The notes beneath the pieces were generated by a model. The model did not search any database, had not been told where the DNA came from, and was given only the letters and a program-made list of their open reading frames with translations. The position numbers and the translations under genes were made by a program. Positions 12,538-24,878 of a stretch of DNA of 64,000 nt are shown here, piece after piece; positions within the stretch are counted from its first letter, which is position 1; the number at the start of each line of letters is the position of its first letter. This DNA comes from Flagellimonas meridianipacifica (GTDB lineage: Bacteria; Bacteroidota; Bacteroidia; Flavobacteriales; Flavobacteriaceae): contig NZ_PVYX01000001.1 of the NCBI RefSeq assembly GCF_003001695.1, positions 1,364,001-1,428,000 on the forward strand, given 5' to 3'.

Positions 12538-15500
12538 CTATTCTTTTAAAAGAATGGCTGGTAGTTTAAGTTCTTGAAAAAGGCTATTAAACTTAGCCAT
12601 TTCATTACCCACTATTGCCTTCTTTTCATTTTCGAATGTACTCCATCTGCCCAAAAGGTCTTTAAGACGTTCCTTGGCGCCTTCGGTCACTTTGGGGTCA
12701 GCTACATCGACAAACCCCTTGAGATGCATGAAATCAGCATTCAACTGGTTGTGAAAATTAATCACATCCTGAAATGTTTTCTGATTGGGCTGGATAAGTT
12801 TTTCTTCCCAGATTTTTATTCTTTTTACCAAAGAGTCACCAAGTTTGATGAGTTCCTTTGCATTTTCATTCTCCTTTAATAAATCGTCATAGGCCAAGAG
12901 TTGTTTTTTTGCTGAACGCATTTGGTTCACCGCTTCGTGCATGGTGGTAATGGCATTTTCAATCTGATTTAGCATTTGCTGCTGTTCTGAATAATCCGAT
13001 TGGCTCGCATTAATTTTTGGGTTTGCGAGCACCCTAGCTTCCGTTTCAACAGTTTCACCATCTAAAGTAAGGCGCAAAGTGTACGAGCCAGGGCCTACCC
13101 TTGAGCCATTGTAATTCCCGAAAACAAAAACCTTGTCTATGGCCGGTATCTGGTCCTTTCTGAAATCCCAAGCAAATCGGTTGAATCCTTTTTTTGATGG
13201 AAGGACAACAGGTTTTGGCGGTCCCCCTGGCCATGATTTAAAATCTTTGGGTTTTTTATTGGTAAGGGTTCGGATAACTTTACCATTTTGCAACACTTCA
13301 AGCTTCAAATCCAATGTATCCGCTTTTTTCGGGAGATAGTAATCAAAAATAACTCCCGTTTTCGGGTTTTGACCCAATCCTGGAATTGGCTTTTCAGGGC
13401 TACTTCCAAAAATGAGATAGGTGTCTTTTGGTGGAAATATGCTTAAACTGGTTTCGTTGCCAGTCGTATTTTGTATGGGTGATAAATCATCCAAAATCCA
13501 GAAAGAACGACCGGCCGTAGCTACAACAAGGTCGTTGTCTTGAATGATAAGGTCATTAATGGGAACCACAGGAAGATTCAACTGGAATTTTTGCCAGTTC
13601 AGACCATCATCGAAAGAAATGTAAAGTCCTGTTTCGGTACCAGCATATAGAAGTCCTTTTCGCTTTTTGTCTTCCCTAACCGCTCGGACAAAGGTATGTT
13701 TGTCTTCAATCCCGTTGGTGGTTTTTGTCCAGGTAGCACCGTAATCCGTGGTTTTGTAAACATAGGGTTTTAAATCCATAAACTTATATTTCATTACCGC
13801 TATGTATGCTGTGCTTGGATTGTGAGGAGACACCTCGATGCTGTTAATAATACTTTCCCCTAAATTGGGAGGGGTAATGTTTTCCCAAGAGTTACCTCCA
13901 TTTTTGGTAATGTGTACAAAACCATCATCGGAACCGGCGTAAAGAACTCCTTCTTCATGGGGAGATTCCACTAGATACATTATGGTGTTATAGTTCTCAC
14001 CTCCCGCGGCTTCATTGGTGTAAGGTCCGCCACCGGGACCTTGCTTCTCTTTATCGTTTCTGGTCAAATCCGGACTCACCACTTCCCAACTTTGTCCACC
14101 ATCTTGTGTTTTGAACACCACATTTCCGGCGTGATAAATGGTATTTCTATCATGCGGAGAACTAATGATTGGTGCATTCCAATTATATCTGAACTTAAAG
14201 TCCTTAGGCACTTTGCCCAAACCCAATTCGGGATATTCTTTAATCGGTTTGCCTTCTCTCGAAGCCTTTACCCATTTTTCAATAATACCTTGATAACATC
14301 CACCATATACCACTTCTGGATTATCTGGATCAAACGCCAAATAAGCGCTTTCACATCCAGCAACAGAATACCAGTCTTTCCAATCAATACCTCTATCATT
14401 GGTTCTACTGGCTATGGCAATTGCAGAATTATCTTGTTGCCCACCGTATACGTTATAAGGAACCAAGTTGTCGGTTATTACCCTGTAGAATTGTGAGGTA
14501 GGTTGATTTTGTTGGGTGCTCCAGCTTTTTCCTCCATTATTAGAGACGTTGGCTCCTCCATCATTGGAATTTATCATCTTGGAGTTATCAAAAGGATGTA
14601 TCCAAAGATGGTGGTTGTCACCATGTGGTGTCGGAAGCGGAGTAAATGTTTTGCCGCCATCAATGGATTTGGTTACAGGAGCATTGAGCACGTAAACCAG
14701 ATTCTCATCCTGTGGGTCTGCGAAAATCTCCATGTAGTACCAAGAACGGGCAATGTTGATTCGGTTGGAGTTGACCTGTTTCCATTTTTTTCCAGCATCA
14801 TCACTTCGATATACACCTCCTTTTTTCCCCTCGGCCTCAATTACGGCAAAAACGCGTTCTGGATTGGCTCTTGAAACAGAGATTCCTGCCTTTCCGAACT
14901 CCTTGGGTAATCCTTCTTTGAGTTGTTCCCAATTAGAACCACCGTCAACGGATTTATAGATTCCCGAATTTTCCCCTCCGGATTCAATTTTCCAAGGAAA
15001 ACGCTGGTGTTGCCACATAGCGGCATAAAGAATCAAAGGATTCTTCATATCCATAGATAAAGATGAAGCACCGGTAATCGTATCTACAAAAAGGACACGC
15101 TCCCAAGTTTCCCCACCATCAAGTGAACGATAAATACCTCGCTGTTCGGATGGGCCATACTGAGCACCTTGTGCTGAAATGAATATAATGTCAGGATTGG
15201 TAGGGTGAATAATCACATCGGATATATGCCGGGTTTCATCAAGACCTATATGTTTCCAAGTTTTGCCTGCATCGGTTGATTTATAAACACCATCACCCAT
15301 AGAAGTCATTACTCCCCGAGCAGCATGTTCGCCCATTCCCACAATCACAATGTTTGGATTGCTTTCTGAAACTGCTATTGCACCAACGGTTCCAGTGTTT
15401 AACTGGCCATCGGAGATATTTTTCCAGGTAATACCGTCATCCACAGTTTTCCAAATACCACCACCCGTTGAGCCCATATAATAGGTCATGGGTTGACCAA

Positions 15501-18471: not shown

Positions 18472-18611
18472 TGAGGTCAGGTTTTAAGATAAATACTGTA
18501 ATGCTAAGTTACTCGATAGAGACCAAAGTCTGTGCCAGAAGTAAAAACATCTAAAAAATCATTATGTTCGTTTAGTGAGCTTTATGGCTACCTTAGTACA
18601 AATACCAATCA

Positions 18612-19910
18612 ATGAAAGAAAACCTGATAAAAAAAGCCATCGAAGTTTTGGAAAACAATTGGCAAGGCGGCTTCACTATTCCTGCACAGGGATTGTACCC
18701 TTTTCAATGGAAATGGGATTCCGGATTTATTGCAGTGGGGTACGCCCATTATGATATGCAGAAGGCGATAAAGGAACTGGAGACGCTGTTGGATGCTCAA
18801 TGGGATAATGGTTTCATTCCCCACATTGTATTCCATAATGATAGTGATACCTATTTTCCCGGGCCAGACTTTCACCAATCCCGATTGCATCCAAAAGCTT
18901 CAAAAAAATATCGTTCAACCGGAATGGTACAACCACCAGTTCTAGGTTTTGTTTTAGAACGAATGTATGATGTTGCAGAAGATAAAAGCACTATTTTGTC
19001 CCATTTGGATAGTCTCATTGATAAAGTTTACGATAATCACGTATACTTTTATGAAAATCGTGATATTCATAATGAAGGTTTAGTCTATATCTATCACAAT
19101 TGGGAGTCTGGAACCGATAATTCCCCCATGTGGGATGACATCTGGCCTACTATGGATTCGCCCGATTACGAATTTGAACGTAGGGACACTACCCACGTAG
19201 ACCCATCACAAAGACCCACAAAAAGAGAGTACGATCATTACCTGCACATCATCGAGATAGCAAAACAGCACGGGTATGACGATGCCAAAATTGCCGAACA
19301 TTCCCCTTTTCTTGTTCAGGACCCCTTGTTCAACGCCATGTTGTTACGTTCCAACGAAGCATTGATTAGATTATATGGATTGCTGAACAGAGGTGTGGAT
19401 GAAATAGCTTACTTACGGTCAAAGCATAGCTTGGGAATTGATAGCATGAACACTAAACTTTTTGATGAGAATTCAGGGGCCTATTTGCACTTTGATCTCC
19501 GTTCCAATAAATTGTTGCCTTACATTTCATCTTCCTCCTTTGCACCTTTGCATGCAGGAATTCCAACAAAGGAAATAGCTTCAAAGTTAGTGGAAACCCT
19601 TACAAATAAGTTTGGGGATAAAGGCAAACTTTTATGCGCTTCATTTGACCCTACACACGAAAAATTCAATCCGAAGAAGTATTGGAGAGGACCTATTTGG
19701 ATAAATATGAATTGGATTGTATTTCAAGGGTTGAAACGATATGGATTTAAAGATTTGGCCGAAAGAGTAAGGAAGGATTCAATTGAACTTGTTGCAAACC
19801 ACGGTTTCTATGAGTATTTTGATTGCAGAAAGAATCATCCAAATGCATATGGAGGGAATAATTTCTCCTGGACGGCAGCGCTTTTGATTGATTTATTGCA
19901 TTCAGATTGA
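18612..19910 (+). CDS. GH63-family glycoside hydrolase, glycosylglycerate-hydrolase-like
   Basis: 432 residues, no signal peptide, so cytoplasmic. The (alpha/alpha)6 fold is suggested by QWKWDSGF (Asp36), NWESGTDNSP (Asp169), GPIWINMNWIVFQGL and FYEYFD (Glu401). The spacing of Asp36, Asp169 and Glu401 is close to that of the catalytic residues I recall for mycobacterial glucosylglycerate hydrolase, and length is similar (about 446). Thermus mannosylglycerate hydrolase is a relative. Downstream are a symporter and a glycerate kinase, which fits release of glycerate plus a hexose. Alternatives in the fold are trehalase-like or alpha-glucosidase activity. Confidence 0.8.
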   Translation: MKENLIKKAIEVLENNWQGGFTIPAQGLYPFQWKWDSGFIAVGYAHYDMQKAIKELETLLDAQWDNGFIPHIVFHNDSDTYFPGPDFHQSRLHPKASKKYRSTGMVQPPVLGFVLERMYDVAEDKSTILSHLDSLIDKVYDNHVYFYENRDIHNEGLVYIYHNWESGTDNSPMWDDIWPTMDSPDYEFERRDTTHVDPSQRPTKREYDHYLHIIEIAKQHGYDDAKIAEHSPFLVQDPLFNAMLLRSNEALIRLYGLLNRGVDEIAYLRSKHSLGIDSMNTKLFDENSGAYLHFDLRSNKLLPYISSSSFAPLHAGIPTKEIASKLVETLTNKFGDKGKLLCASFDPTHEKFNPKKYWRGPIWINMNWIVFQGLKRYGFKDLAERVRKDSIELVANHGFYEYFDCRKNHPNAYGGNNFSWTAALLIDLLHSD

Positions 19911-19957
19911 TGCTTTCATACTAAGGAATAATTGTATAACCAACCAATACTACCTAA

Positions 19958-21562
19958 ATGAACTACATTGACTACATCATTATTATTGTATATCTGGTTG
20001 CCTTTTTGGGCATAGGGTATCTCTTCAAGGAAAACAAAAGTTCAGGAGATTATTTTCTTGGGGGCCGCAGCATGGGGTGGCTTCCTTTGAGTCTTTCCAC
20101 CATGGCAACCCAGCTTTCTGCCATTAGCTTTATTTCTGCGCCGGCATTTGTTGGACTCAAGGATGGCGGTGGACTGCAATGGCTCACTTACGAATTTGGT
20201 GTTCCCTTGGCCATGGCATTTCTTATGGTAGCTCTAATTCCGACCTTATATAAATCTGGAATTGTAAGTGTTTATGAATATCTGGAAAAACGTTTTGATG
20301 CTTCCTCAAGGTTATTGATAAGCTTTGTTTTTCAGATTAGCCGTTCGGTAGCTACAGGTGTAATGGTATATACGATGGCCTTGATTCTTCAGGCAACCGT
20401 TGGGGTCGATTTCTGGATTTCGGTTTTGATTATCGGTGTCATTACGCTCGTTTATTCATTTCAAGGGGGTATGAAAGCTGTTATTTGGGGGGATGTTATC
20501 CAAATGATCATTCTCTTTTTGGGAATCGTGATATGTTTGGCCTATGGTATAAGCGAATTGGGAGGATTTGATAATTTCTTGACCAATGTGGATAAGGAAC
20601 GTATCACTGCGGTGGATTTCACCAAATGGGGCTTTAATAATGCTGATAAAAATGACGAGTTTGGTTTTTGGCCCATGATTATAGGTGGATTCTTTTTGTA
20701 TGCATCCTATTACGGTACGGACCAAACTCAATCGCAACGACTGCTTTCTGCAAAAGGGATGCCTACCATTAAAAAGTTATTATTGGCCAACGGACTTTTT
20801 AGATTTCCTTTGACGCTTACGTATTGTATCATGGGATTGGTCCTAGGTACCTTGTTGGTCCAGGACTTAGGTTTTCAAGAAATGATGGAATCCGTGTATC
20901 AAGCCAATATAGATTCCTTGGAGGGAAAAAAAGCTGATTTAATGGTTCCTGTGTTCATTATTAATTATTTGCCAAATGGTATTATTGGGATTTTGATTGT
21001 AGCCATTATGTCGGCAGCCATGTCTTCTTTAAGTTCGACAGTGAATTCCCTTTCGGCCGTAACTATGGAAGATTTTGTGAAGCGCTTTAAACCGGAAATG
21101 ACCGATTCTAAATACGTGCTAACATCAAGACTTCTATCTCTTTTTTGGGGATTGGTCTGTTTGTTCTTTGCGTTTTTTGCTGGGAATATTGAGGGGACTG
21201 TAATTGAGGTAATCAATAAGGTGAGTTCTGTTTTTTACGGACCCATTCTTGCAGGTTTCATGTTGGCCATCATGACCAAGAAAACCCATGCTCTAGGCGC
21301 GAATATAGGAATTGTGGTAGGGGTTTTGTTCAATATGTACCTGTGGTTGTATGTACCTGAAGTATTTTGGTTCTGGTGGAATGCCATCGGCTGTTTGGTC
21401 ACTGTAGTTGTAGCCATGGTTGTCAGTGCCTTTATCAAGAGAAAGGTTAATGAAGGTTTGGAGGTCGTATATTCCCCCTCGAAAAAAGAAGTGGCACTTT
21501 TACTTGGATTTTTTGCTTTTATCGTGGTATTGAGCATTTATATGCCCAAACTTCTATCTTAA
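19958..21562 (+). CDS. Sodium/solute symporter (SSS family)
   Basis: 534 residues with about 13-14 hydrophobic helices. The N-terminal DYFLGGRSMGWLPLSLS with MATQLSAISFISAPAF is the SSS family signature, and YGTDQTQSQRLLSAK is the conserved loop before helix 8. Solute is taken up with Na+ across the inner membrane. SSS members of this sugar-related subgroup carry hexoses, sialic acid or other small polar solutes. It begins 47 bases after the GH63 gene on the same strand, so the transported compound is probably the hydrolase's substrate. Confidence 0.92.
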   Translation: MNYIDYIIIIVYLVAFLGIGYLFKENKSSGDYFLGGRSMGWLPLSLSTMATQLSAISFISAPAFVGLKDGGGLQWLTYEFGVPLAMAFLMVALIPTLYKSGIVSVYEYLEKRFDASSRLLISFVFQISRSVATGVMVYTMALILQATVGVDFWISVLIIGVITLVYSFQGGMKAVIWGDVIQMIILFLGIVICLAYGISELGGFDNFLTNVDKERITAVDFTKWGFNNADKNDEFGFWPMIIGGFFLYASYYGTDQTQSQRLLSAKGMPTIKKLLLANGLFRFPLTLTYCIMGLVLGTLLVQDLGFQEMMESVYQANIDSLEGKKADLMVPVFIINYLPNGIIGILIVAIMSAAMSSLSSTVNSLSAVTMEDFVKRFKPEMTDSKYVLTSRLLSLFWGLVCLFFAFFAGNIEGTVIEVINKVSSVFYGPILAGFMLAIMTKKTHALGANIGIVVGVLFNMYLWLYVPEVFWFWWNAIGCLVTVVVAMVVSAFIKRKVNEGLEVVYSPSKKEVALLLGFFAFIVVLSIYMPKLLS

Positions 21563-21633
21563 TCTAAATGTATTTGGATAAAAAAAGTCACCCTAAACCG
21601 AACTATATTTGAATCCTATTGCAATTGGGAAAT

Positions 21634-22650
21634 ATGAAAGTACTTACTTGTAGAATAGTTGTTTTTTGTCTTGTTTTATTCATATCTATTTCCGCTTTCG
21701 GACAGAATGATAACCAAATCTATATTCAACCTCCATTTTTGACTGCTGGAGATACGGTCGCGATAGTAGCTCCGGCTGGCATTCTTAAAAACCGAGAAAA
21801 AAGCATTTCAAAAGCGATGGAGATTTTATCTTCATGGGGATTACACCCTATTTTAGGGAAACATCTATATGCCAAGAACAATCATTTTGCAGGTACCGAT
21901 GCCCAAAGGGCGGAGGATTTTCAGAATGCCATGGACGACCCAAGTGTTAAAGCCATTTGGTGTGCTCGCGGTGGATATGGTTCCATGCGGATACTGGATA
22001 AACTGAATTTTTCAAATTTTGGGAAAAGTCCAAAATGGATAGTTGGTTTTTCAGATATTACCGCTTTTCATGGGAAACTTGATCAATTGGGAATTCAAAG
22101 TATGCATGGCATGATGGCCGCGGGCTTGGAATTAAGTGAAGAACTTTCTGATGATACGCAGGAAAACATCAATAGCCTGAAGAAAGCCCTTTTTGGAGAA
22201 GTATTACGATATGATTTGGATTCATCCCCTCACAACAAAAGAGGAATGGCAAAAGGGGTTTTGATAGGGGGTAACCTTTCCCTGCTCCAAGCCAGTCTCC
22301 AATCTGATGCTAACCTGGATACAGAGGGTAAAATTCTCTTTATTGAGGAGATAGGTGAGTACAGATACAGTATTGATAGGATGTTGTATAGTTTGAAGCG
22401 AGCAGGTTATTTTGATGGACTTGCGGCCTTAGTAGTTGGAGAAATAAGCAAGGTAAGAACCAATACAACTCCATTTGGGATGTCAAATGAAGAGCTTATT
22501 TTGGATGTGGTCAAGGAATGCGATTTCCCCGTACTTTTCCATTTTCCCGCTGGACATGGAGATGAAAATAGGACCATGATTTTTGGAGAGGAAGTAACTC
22601 TTGACGTGGGAGTGAAAAAATCCGTAGTAACCTTCGAGAAACAAAATTGA
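21634..22650 (+). CDS. LD-carboxypeptidase (S66 family), exported form
   Basis: 338 residues from the ATG at 21634; a TTG 15 bases upstream is unlikely. A signal peptide (IVVFCLVLFISISAFGQ) puts it in the periplasm, whereas E. coli LdcA is cytoplasmic. Landmarks: GDTVAIVAPAG, IWCARGGYGSMRIL, the nucleophile Ser in WIVGFSDITAFH, GGNLSLLQASL, FIEEIGEYRYSIDRML (Glu), and FPAGHGDENRTM (His). S66 enzymes trim the tetrapeptide of peptidoglycan to a tripeptide; a different amide substrate is possible given the cluster. Its stop overlaps the start of the glycerate kinase gene by one base. Confidence 0.9.
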   Translation: MKVLTCRIVVFCLVLFISISAFGQNDNQIYIQPPFLTAGDTVAIVAPAGILKNREKSISKAMEILSSWGLHPILGKHLYAKNNHFAGTDAQRAEDFQNAMDDPSVKAIWCARGGYGSMRILDKLNFSNFGKSPKWIVGFSDITAFHGKLDQLGIQSMHGMMAAGLELSEELSDDTQENINSLKKALFGEVLRYDLDSSPHNKRGMAKGVLIGGNLSLLQASLQSDANLDTEGKILFIEEIGEYRYSIDRMLYSLKRAGYFDGLAALVVGEISKVRTNTTPFGMSNEELILDVVKECDFPVLFHFPAGHGDENRTMIFGEEVTLDVGVKKSVVTFEKQN

Positions 22651-23801
22651 TGAAGTTTGTCTTGGCACCAGATAAATACAAAGGTTCACTTTCTGGCGAA
22701 GAGTTTTGTGATGCTGTTGAATCTGGTTTGCTTAAGGTATTTCCTAAAGCTCAGGTTTTAAAAAAGCCTTTGGCTGATGGGGGAGATGGAACCCTTGAGG
22801 TAGTCAAGCATTATCTGAACGCCGAAATTGTATCAACGACTGTGCAGGACCCATTGTTTCGGGAAATTAAATCGGACTATCTTTTTTCGAAAGACAAGGG
22901 GGTTGCCTTTATCGAAATGTCCGAGGCTTCGGGATATAAATTATTGTCCAAAACAGAGTTGAATTGCATGAACACAACCTCTTTGGGTACTGGCGACCTC
23001 ATTAAAGACGCTTTGGAAAAAGGTGCCAGAGAGATTGTTCTAGGAATTGGTGGTAGTGCAACCAATGATGGCGGAATTGGAATGGCTACGGCTTTGGGCT
23101 ATCAATTTTTGGACTCAGATGGAAATGAAATCAAACCTATTGGAAAGAATCTAAGTGCCATAAGCCGAATTGATGGTACAAATATTCATCCCAAATTACA
23201 GGGAGTAGAGTTCAAAGTGGCTTGCGATGTGAAAAACCCCTTGCACGGGAAAGAAGGAGCTGCCTTTGTGTATGGCCCCCAAAAGGGAGCAACGCCGGAA
23301 GATGTCATCGCACTGGATAATGGACTTCAAAACTTTGCAAAGGTGGTCCATAAAGAGTTTGGAATAGATGTACAAAACATTCAAGGAGCTGGGGCAGCAG
23401 GGGGAATGGGAGCAGGAGCAGTTGTTTTTTTGAAGGCTTCCCTTGCTTCGGGCATTGATTTGATTAAGGAAATGGCTCAATTCGATGAAGCGATACAAGG
23501 TTCAGATTGGATTATTACTGGTGAGGGTCAATTGGATAAGCAAACTTTATCGGGTAAAACGATTGCCGGTGTACTGCAAGCTGCCAAAAACTATCAAATT
23601 CCCGTGGCCGCTTTTTGTGGTTCGGTTTCGGTCAGTATTGAAGATTTGGAAACTATGGGACTGGATTATGTAACCTCTATAATCAATCAACCGGGAACAT
23701 TGCAGGAGGTAAAGGACAAAAGCTTTGAGAATTTAGTGTTGACCGCTTATAATTTTGCCAAAGTCTTGAGAGTGAAAGAAAATAATTCAATCAAAGGGTA
23801 A
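22650..23801 (+). CDS. Glycerate kinase (GarK/GlxK type)
   Basis: 383 residues. Phosphorylates D-glycerate, in this family usually to 2-phosphoglycerate, which enters lower glycolysis. Family motifs: LAPDKYKGSLSGEEFCDAV at the N-terminus, KPLADGGDGTLE, LGIGGSATNDGGIGMATALG, GAGAAGGMGAGAV and ITGEGQLDKQTLSGKTI. The ATG at 22650 shares its A with the stop of the S66 gene (TGATG), so the two are translationally coupled. The placement after GH63 and symporter genes is the main support for a glycerate-yielding pathway. Its last 15 bases overlap the convergent gene at 23787. Confidence 0.93.
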   Translation: MKFVLAPDKYKGSLSGEEFCDAVESGLLKVFPKAQVLKKPLADGGDGTLEVVKHYLNAEIVSTTVQDPLFREIKSDYLFSKDKGVAFIEMSEASGYKLLSKTELNCMNTTSLGTGDLIKDALEKGAREIVLGIGGSATNDGGIGMATALGYQFLDSDGNEIKPIGKNLSAISRIDGTNIHPKLQGVEFKVACDVKNPLHGKEGAAFVYGPQKGATPEDVIALDNGLQNFAKVVHKEFGIDVQNIQGAGAAGGMGAGAVVFLKASLASGIDLIKEMAQFDEAIQGSDWIITGEGQLDKQTLSGKTIAGVLQAAKNYQIPVAAFCGSVSVSIEDLETMGLDYVTSIINQPGTLQEVKDKSFENLVLTAYNFAKVLRVKENNSIKG

Positions 23802-24185: not shown

Positions 24186-24785
24186 TTAGGGGTATTTTTT
24201 GTTCATTTTATATTCCAAAGACATTTTTACGGTTGGCCATTCGCTGTTTAAGATAGAAAAGATAACCGTATCTCTTATATTTCCCATCTTATCAATACGA
24301 TGGTTTCGGATAATTCCATCCTGTTTGGCCCCCAATCTCAAAATCGCATTACGAGAAGGAAAATTAAAAAAGTTAGTCTTAAACTCTACGGCAATAGCAT
24401 CCAAGGTTTCGAAAGCATGCTGGAGCAAGAGGTATTTGCTTTCCGTATTAATTCCTGTACGCTGAACCTTTTGGGCGTACCAGGTGTACCCAATTTCTAC
24501 TCTGCGATTGGGAGCATCTACACTGCAATACCTTGTGGAGCCCACAAGCTTGCCAGATTTTTTTTCAATAATAACAAAAGGTTGGGCGAGACCTTCGGAT
24601 TCCTGTTGTAAAGCAAAATCAACATATGCGTCAAGGCTATCTTTTGAAGGAACAGAAGTGTACCAAATTTCCCAAAGATTCCCATCCGAAGCGGCTTCCA
24701 AAATCTCTGATTTATACGATTCTGTAAGAGGAAGTAACTTTACTAGATTTCCTTCCAACTCAACTGGGTTCAACCATTTAGCCAT
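24186..24785 (-). CDS. GNAT-family N-acetyltransferase
   Basis: 199 residues from the ATG at 24785 (MAKWLNPVELEG); a TTG at 24806 would add 7 residues. RimJ/RimL-type layout: LVKLLPLTESYKSEIL, FVIIEKKSGKLVGSTRYCSV, the acetyl-CoA-binding stretch RRVEIGYTWYAQKVQRTGIN, then AIAVEFKTNFFNFPSRNAI and LGAKQDGIIRNH. The acceptor (protein N-terminus, amino acid or small molecule) cannot be predicted. Probably in a two-gene unit with the downstream hypothetical. Confidence 0.9.
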   Translation of the reverse strand: MAKWLNPVELEGNLVKLLPLTESYKSEILEAASDGNLWEIWYTSVPSKDSLDAYVDFALQQESEGLAQPFVIIEKKSGKLVGSTRYCSVDAPNRRVEIGYTWYAQKVQRTGINTESKYLLLQHAFETLDAIAVEFKTNFFNFPSRNAILRLGAKQDGIIRNHRIDKMGNIRDTVIFSILNSEWPTVKMSLEYKMNKKYP

Positions 24786-24878
24786 AACCGTGATTTTGAT
24801 AATCAAATATAATGTGATTTTAAAGTTGGTTGTTATCTGAATCTTACTTTTGAGATTATAAATCGTGAACTGTGCAAC

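Follow-up and report, generated by a model that had tools for sequence, protein, structure and literature searches.

The window, by which we mean the whole stretch of 64,000 nucleotides from Flagellimonas meridianipacifica that was analysed, carries what we read, at a probability of about 80%, as a reduced flavobacterial operon for the uptake and use of glycosylglycerates. Mannosylglycerate (digeneaside) and/or glucosylglycerate would enter the cytoplasm through a Na+-coupled symporter of the SSS family, an inverting GH63-type hydrolase would split the glycosylglycerate into a hexose and D-glycerate, and a kinase would phosphorylate the D-glycerate, feeding lower glycolysis. On family knowledge the product of this last step would be 2-phosphoglycerate. 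Sugar-glycerate osmolytes of algae and cyanobacteria are the probable food, and relatives commonly carry a fuller version of the genes for their use. An earlier note on this DNA had proposed the same core of Na+-driven uptake, hydrolysis and glycerate phosphorylation, which is now supported by residue mapping, by the gene order in 80 loci and by published predictions of digeneaside degradation.

Four open reading frames make up the locus, all present, intact and on the + strand, in the order and with the families claimed earlier (ORF listing, Pfam): a putative GH63-type (MGH1-like) glucosyl-/mannosylglycerate hydrolase (18612..19910, 432 aa), an SSS-family sodium:solute symporter that is the candidate glycosylglycerate carrier (19958..21562, 534 aa), a predicted exported S66 peptidase of the LD-carboxypeptidase family (21634..22650, 338 aa) and a class II glycerate kinase (22650..23801, 383 aa). 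The ORF list gives TTG starts for the last two genes (21619 and 22647, respectively); these are probably wrong, and the ATG codons at 21634 and 22650 used here fit better. The final A of the S66 stop codon (TGA, 22648-22650) is also the first base of the kinase start codon (ATG, 22650-22652), a one-base overlap that bears out the suggested coupling of the two genes. Judged by eye, the N-terminus of the S66 protein looks like a signal peptide, and the GH63 protein, which has no hydrophobic N-terminus, is likewise judged to be cytoplasmic. The genes are presumably co-transcribed; scans for promoters and terminators performed no better than on shuffled sequences (15 vs 16.0 and 2 vs 5.7, respectively).

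The GH63 protein matches PF22422 (MGH1-like_GH) over model positions 1-356 of 356 with 299 bits (cut-off 27). Its best solved match is the Thermus chain 2z07 (E 7.6e-96), followed by MhGgH (6g3n/5ohc), the glucosylglycerate hydrolase of Mycolicibacterium hassiacum. Identity amounts to 170/406 residues (42%) with Thermus TTHA0978, which we take to be the mannosylglycerate hydrolase of T. thermophilus, and to 143/416 (34%) with MhGgH. Asp36, Asp169 and Glu401, the trio whose spacing the earlier note had matched to glycosylglycerate hydrolases, align with Asp43, Asp182 and Glu419 of MhGgH. Comparison with the characterised enzymes gave no grouping with trehalases, and 18 of the 19 catalytic or ligand-contact residues of MhGgH are identical, the sole mismatch being Gln434, which is replaced by Phe418 here and by Phe in the Thermus relative too. 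PMC6608630 names Tyr36, Trp40, Tyr88, Arg216 and Tyr375 as the direct glycerate contacts of MhGgH; all five are retained in the GH63 protein, and the glycerate-contact residues are unchanged in 81/81 aligned sequences. The residue mapping supports glucosyl-/mannosylglycerate hydrolysis without choosing between the two solutes, which, according to the same paper, the Thermus enzyme accepts about equally (PMC6608630). The protein scores 335 bits against the NCBIfam glucosylglycerate hydrolase equivalog NF047898, below its cut-off of 550, and is therefore assigned to the wider family only, not to that equivalog. Identity as a trehalase or alpha-glucosidase was considered and rejected, the only matches of that kind being weak and secondary (Trehalase, 55 bits; GH63 C-terminal, 40 bits).

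The kinase is assigned by PF02595 (Gly_kinase, 470 bits) and TIGR00045 (445 bits, cut-off 168), and its nearest solved relative is 3cwc (E 6.4e-91). It is present as a single copy in all 22 genus genomes searched, whereas GH63 occurs in only 4 of the same 22, so this enzyme must serve some other function as well. Neighbourhoods were fetched for 14 of the 18 GH63-less genomes among G001-G021 (G002, G007, G010 and G014 were left out), and in 13 of these a SIMPL gene is directly followed by the kinase gene. The kinase is genus-core and stays at the locus where the remaining genes are missing. This persistence, together with the weak Trehalase and GH63 C-terminal matches, would suit a hydrolase that acts on some other alpha-glycoside (trehalose, glucosylglycerol or a short glucan) beside a kinase with a function of its own. 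We regard that as quite unlikely, given the glycerate contacts conserved in every aligned sequence, the inactivity of MhGgH on glucosylglycerol and glucosylglycolate as reported in PMC6608630, and the fact that in loci from many genera a kinase of this family follows GH63, even when that kinase is only distantly related.

The counts of gene order come from the best 80 of 102 confirmed loci, fetched by similarity to the window's GH63 protein (61-94% identity), and therefore hold only for close relatives. Downstream of GH63, 71 loci have 6.5 kb or more of flank, and an SSS gene follows in all 71. This count takes every match at E 1e-8, two loci (L061 and L092) with the gene in pieces among them; under a half-length filter the SSS cluster is found in 76/80 loci. 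The kinase follows in 65/71 and is missing from the searched interval in six, L092 being scored as a miss because its kinase fragment lies nearer than that interval. The order is also kept in loci with a more distantly related symporter (23/78 at 45-62% identity) or kinase (9/70 below 45%). The neighbourhoods of relatives thus agree with the clustering proposed from the window.

Upstream of GH63, 56 of 65 loci have a divergent LacI gene and 54 a TonB-dependent receptor gene, assignments made by scanning a single locus (L031) for families and carried over to the rest by clustering; both genes are missing in 8/65, which makes them usual partners and not defining ones. The palindrome GCAAACGTTTGC, allowing at most one mismatch, occurs in 50 of 57 LacI-receptor gaps and in none of 50 shuffled sets. 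In the full set of the relatives, the receptor would serve passage of the outer membrane and the LacI regulator would act at the GCAAACGTTTGC site. GH63 itself is found in only 8/36 genus genomes and 20/149 family genomes.

The SSS protein matches PF00474 (SSF) with 163 bits and TIGR00813 with 249 bits (cut-off 184). At what we take to be the sodium-site positions of SiaT (presumably the protein in 5nv9), its residues A50, L53, A353, S356 and S357 are identical in 5/5 cases in the alignment. The best solved relatives are carriers of iodide, vitamins and monocarboxylates, with no known glycosylglycerate carrier among them, and a literature search found no published Na+-coupled glycosylglycerate carrier of this kind. 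Glycosylglycerate transport by this protein is suggested by gene order alone.

The window keeps GH63, SSS and kinase in the order and strand of the cassette. Where relatives have LacI and the receptor, it has a gap of 140 bases (18472..18611) between a divergent SIMPL gene and GH63. LacI, operator, receptor and the in-cluster GNAT acetyltransferase are missing here and in three members of the same clade (L023-L025). Relocation of the receptor and regulator was rejected, the best matches elsewhere in the genome being at 36% over residues 1-237 of 887 for the receptor and 35% for LacI. A search of the window for the operator within 2 mismatches found none, nor was there an operator-like site within 3 mismatches in the gap. 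Weak operator-like sites with 3 mismatches lie upstream of GH63 in L023 and L025, and are absent from L024 and the window.

With its receptor and regulator missing, the window copy may be decaying, a remnant whose genes are open and whose job is no longer done, and GH63 of this type is wholly absent from 28/36 genus genomes. We consider this unlikely: the reading frames of GH63, SSS and kinase are uninterrupted and complete, every mapped active-site residue is retained, the three genes are kept by all four members of the clade, down to 78% identity, and LacI and receptor are also missing in other lineages (L039, L061, L083, L088, L096 and L098). In this clade control by LacI is lost and, with the receptor gone, entry through the outer membrane would probably be by porins or another receptor. 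It is possible, and we propose it tentatively, that the SSS protein is a Na+-coupled glycosylglycerate carrier that in this clade works without receptor or repressor in an always-on, porin-fed scavenging route. Turnover of a solute made by the cell itself was rejected; no MPG synthase was found in the genome and no match to the GPG synthase model exceeded 70 bits (cut-off 262), so scavenging is likelier. Three ROK-family matches are possible kinases for the hexose.

The S66 protein has both domains of its family, PF02016 (Peptidase_S66, 138 bits) and PF17676 (S66C, 103 bits), and among solved structures it comes closest to P. aeruginosa PA5198 and mutants of that protein. It is the sole S66 peptidase detected in the genome. 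Among 36 genus genomes the window type occurs in 5, the usual genus S66 in 26, neither in 5 and both in none; the chance figure for this exclusivity, 6.7e-4, assumes independent genomes, an assumption that does not hold here, and in the second 14 genomes the other type was told by its 28-31% identity to the window S66 instead of by a separate search. As the two types never co-occur, the window S66 looks like a replaced housekeeping LD-carboxypeptidase. The earlier note had hedged that this gene might hint at an amide-linked derivative. On such a reading the peptidase would open, for example, mannosylglyceramide ahead of the GH63 step. The placement between SSS and kinase, found in the window, L023, L024, L028 and L031, and the overlap with the kinase start would suit such a role. 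We hold it to be highly improbable: the gene has this placement in only 4/71 related loci, the exclusivity is that expected when a cell-wall function is replaced, and nine genomes from other families carry relatives of it at 39-47% and have no GH63 match. S66 lies outside the conserved unit, an operon bystander, so the amide hint finds no support, and membership of the pathway was rejected. The genus displays a stepwise dismantling of the gene set, with the kinase retained and an unrelated peptidase inserted.

Several systems for the same solutes are known. The E. coli mannosylglycerate PTS system (mngA/mngB) and glucosylglycerate phosphorylase serve their use as food by means of other carriers and of enzymes from other families. 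Red algae have digeneaside as a solute, and the prediction of genes for it in Zobellia galactanivorans reportedly stems from Barbeyron 2016. PMC8072126 describes these predicted degradation genes and homologues in Maribacter dokdonensis 62-1, and a passage of PMC6298971 lists digeneaside among the predicted substrates of North Sea Flavobacteriia. LacI, receptor, GH63, SSS and kinase are all present in 5/5 Zobellia and 10/13 Maribacter loci (L040 and L041 have no receptor, and L034 is a short contig), and we infer that the published genes are this same set. They share organism family and solute class with the window, which differs in having no receptor, LacI or operator and in carrying S66 between SSS and kinase. 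Our literature search found no paper pairing GH63 with a glycerate kinase. Glucosylglycerate is named as an osmolyte in PMC5507952, and PMC11631117 counts it as one of the two main compatible solutes in Prochlorococcus NATL2A. MhGgH of Mycolicibacterium hassiacum (PMC6608630) is like the window enzyme in its mapped residues and unlike it in overall identity and at Gln434; it mobilises the cell's own solute, whereas uptake is proposed here. The Thermus thermophilus mannosylglycerate hydrolase (2z07, 4wva-c) is closer in identity and shares the Phe. As the pathway has already been predicted in related species, the window adds a rather ordinary new case, if one with a few unusual losses; the gene set marks flavobacteria that would be able to eat glucosylglycerate or digeneaside, and it provides candidates for the carrier, the regulator and the operator.

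The four plus-strand genes that the earlier note had proposed as an uptake-and-catabolism cluster are all present and intact, and Pfam and NCBIfam place them in the families MGH1-like GH63 hydrolase (18612-19910), SSS symporter (19958-21562), S66 peptidase (21634-22650) and class II glycerate kinase (22650-23801). Forty-seven bases separate the hydrolase and symporter genes, and 71 the symporter gene and the likely S66 ATG at 21634. As had been noticed, the S66 stop is coupled to the kinase start, with one base common to stop and ATG (TGATG, 22648-22652). A promoter and terminator scan found no terminator-like sites on the plus strand in the intergenic gaps of this run; the four genes may be co-transcribed.

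The kinship with glycosylglycerate hydrolases, first proposed from the spacing of Asp36, Asp169 and Glu401, held up on comparison with characterised enzymes. Among solved structures, the window protein is closest to Thermus TTHA0978 (2z07, E 7.6e-96) and then to MhGgH, the glucosylglycerate hydrolase of Mycolicibacterium hassiacum. We mapped 19 residues that section 3.5 of PMC6608630 gives as catalytic or as contacting the substrate or an analogue; 18 are identical to MhGgH, including the three acidic residues and the glycerate contacts Tyr29, Trp33, Tyr81, Arg201 and Tyr357. The sole mismatch is Phe418 for MhGgH Gln434, with Phe also in the Thermus protein, and this pattern is the same in 81/81 sequences. 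Printed alignments have Phe at this position in chain 6g3n and Gln in 5ohc. According to PMC6608630, MhGgH prefers glucosylglycerate, and the Thermus and Selaginella enzymes use both glucosylglycerate and mannosylglycerate about equally; Phe418 may tilt the window enzyme toward the Thermus type and settles no substrate choice. The NCBIfam equivalog model for glucosylglycerate hydrolase scores it at 335 bits, below the 550 cut-off.

The proposed grouping was borne out by the gene neighbourhoods of relatives. The named genomes scanned gave 102 confirmed loci, of which the best 80 were taken; by record title all 80 belong to Bacteroidota and nearly all to Flavobacteriaceae. Of these 80, 71 extend at least 6.5 kb downstream: all 71 have a symporter gene after GH63, though in L061 and L092 it is broken, and 65 also have a kinase gene downstream. 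The kinase is missing in L071, L083, L089, L092, L095 and L099, L092 being counted here though a kinase fragment sits closer in. At L088, a gluconolactonase-like gene (SGL, 13026-14018) occupies the usual kinase place, and the kinase is absent within the short flank. Upstream sequence of at least 5.5 kb is available for 65 of the 80 loci; 56 of these carry a divergent LacI gene and 54 a TonB-dependent receptor, eight having neither, three LacI only and one the receptor only. GH63 directly follows the receptor in the gene strings, leaving no space for an intervening SusD gene, except at L102, where a 447-aa ORF lies between them. A GNAT gene, an Acetyltransf_3 acetyltransferase (e.g. L026-L031), stands between GH63 and the symporter gene in 20 of the best 80 loci; L080 and L102 carry extra ORFs of 667 aa and 565 aa there.

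Symporters in 55 of 78 loci share at least 70% identity with that of the window, and the other 23 are of a second type (45-62%); kinase identity falls below 45% in 9/70 loci. Since the roles stay while the genes are exchanged, a functional link is favoured over shared ancestry alone.

In the LacI-receptor gaps the LacI-type palindrome GCAAACGTTTGC occurs exactly in 38/57 and with at most one mismatch in 50/57, compared with none in 50 shuffled sets; a second, overlapping half-site often accompanies it. The window has no such site within two mismatches, against 2.9 expected by chance.

A full-length GH63 of the window type is found in 8 of 36 Flagellimonas/Allomuricauda genomes, the window's own included, and in 20 of 149 genomes drawn from the family; the raw tally of the same search (19/59) takes in weak matches to other glycosidases. 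In six genus members (L011-L015, L022) a different glycosidase, encoded by a longer ORF (679-688 aa), matches this GH63 weakly at its C-terminus (26-32%). The window's own genome has one further MGH1-like match, weaker at 79 bits (L002, G000:C2:1465482-1466498); the ORF concerned, of 531 aa, probably encodes a trehalase judging by size and homologues.

The window and L023-L025 form one GH63 clade with full support (100/100), without LacI, receptor or in-cluster GNAT, and a genome search found no receptor or LacI orthologue elsewhere in the window's genome. In the window, a homologue of the in-set GNAT lies after the kinase (24186-24806, minus strand). The kinase is single-copy in 22/22 genus genomes searched and in 1/14 genomes from other families of the order. 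We compared 14 kinase neighbourhoods of GH63-less genus members: SIMPL, in the window the divergent gene upstream of GH63, is followed directly by the kinase in 13, and GNAT follows the kinase in all 14. In the exception, L106 (G011), SIMPL and the kinase are separated by three other ORFs, of 283, 283 and 643 aa, at the usual site of the set. The LacI-to-SSS block has thus either disappeared from one fixed site or never been acquired there, the window being an intermediate stage. Given how widespread the full set is, loss would be the simpler account.

S66 of the window type occurs in only 4 of 71 loci (best 80 of 102). Among the 36 genus genomes, five have this type, 26 another S66 (about 30% identical), five neither and none both; for the first 22, the other type also served as query. 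Queries of both types found the window S66 as the only one in its genome. Of the eight genus genomes with GH63, three are without this type: G031, which has the other one, and G023 and G035, which have neither. Relatives at 39-47% come from nine genomes in other families, all without a GH63 match. The simplest account would be that this copy has taken over from the usual LD-carboxypeptidase of the genus and that its place in the operon is accidental.

The families, active site, gene order and losses can be read from the sequence; beyond them we infer a route of import, hydrolysis, phosphorylation and hexose use. The outer-membrane passage of the solute in this organism might, at a guess, be through porins. 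The symporter would drive import with Na+; five positions, which we take to be the sodium site as known for SiaT, are identical by alignment. Among solved proteins, those most closely related to it transport iodide, vitamins and monocarboxylates, a range that includes anions; glycosylglycerates are anions too. GH63 would then release hexose and glycerate by inverting hydrolysis, as described for MhGgH (PMC6608630). The hexose may pass to a ROK kinase, three ROK-family matches being found, all outside the operon. Glycerate would be phosphorylated by the kinase, whose family product is 2-phosphoglycerate.

Degradation genes for digeneaside (mannosylglycerate) are described in Zobellia galactanivorans, with homologues in Maribacter dokdonensis, in PMC8072126 (after Barbeyron 2016), and digeneaside is among the substrates predicted for North Sea Flavobacteriia (PMC6298971). 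Titles and abstracts of the literature searched yielded no experimental test of the gene set. From our Zobellia and Maribacter loci we infer that the published digeneaside genes are the set seen here. A set of this predicted kind is already known; what is new is a further example with a reduced make-up.
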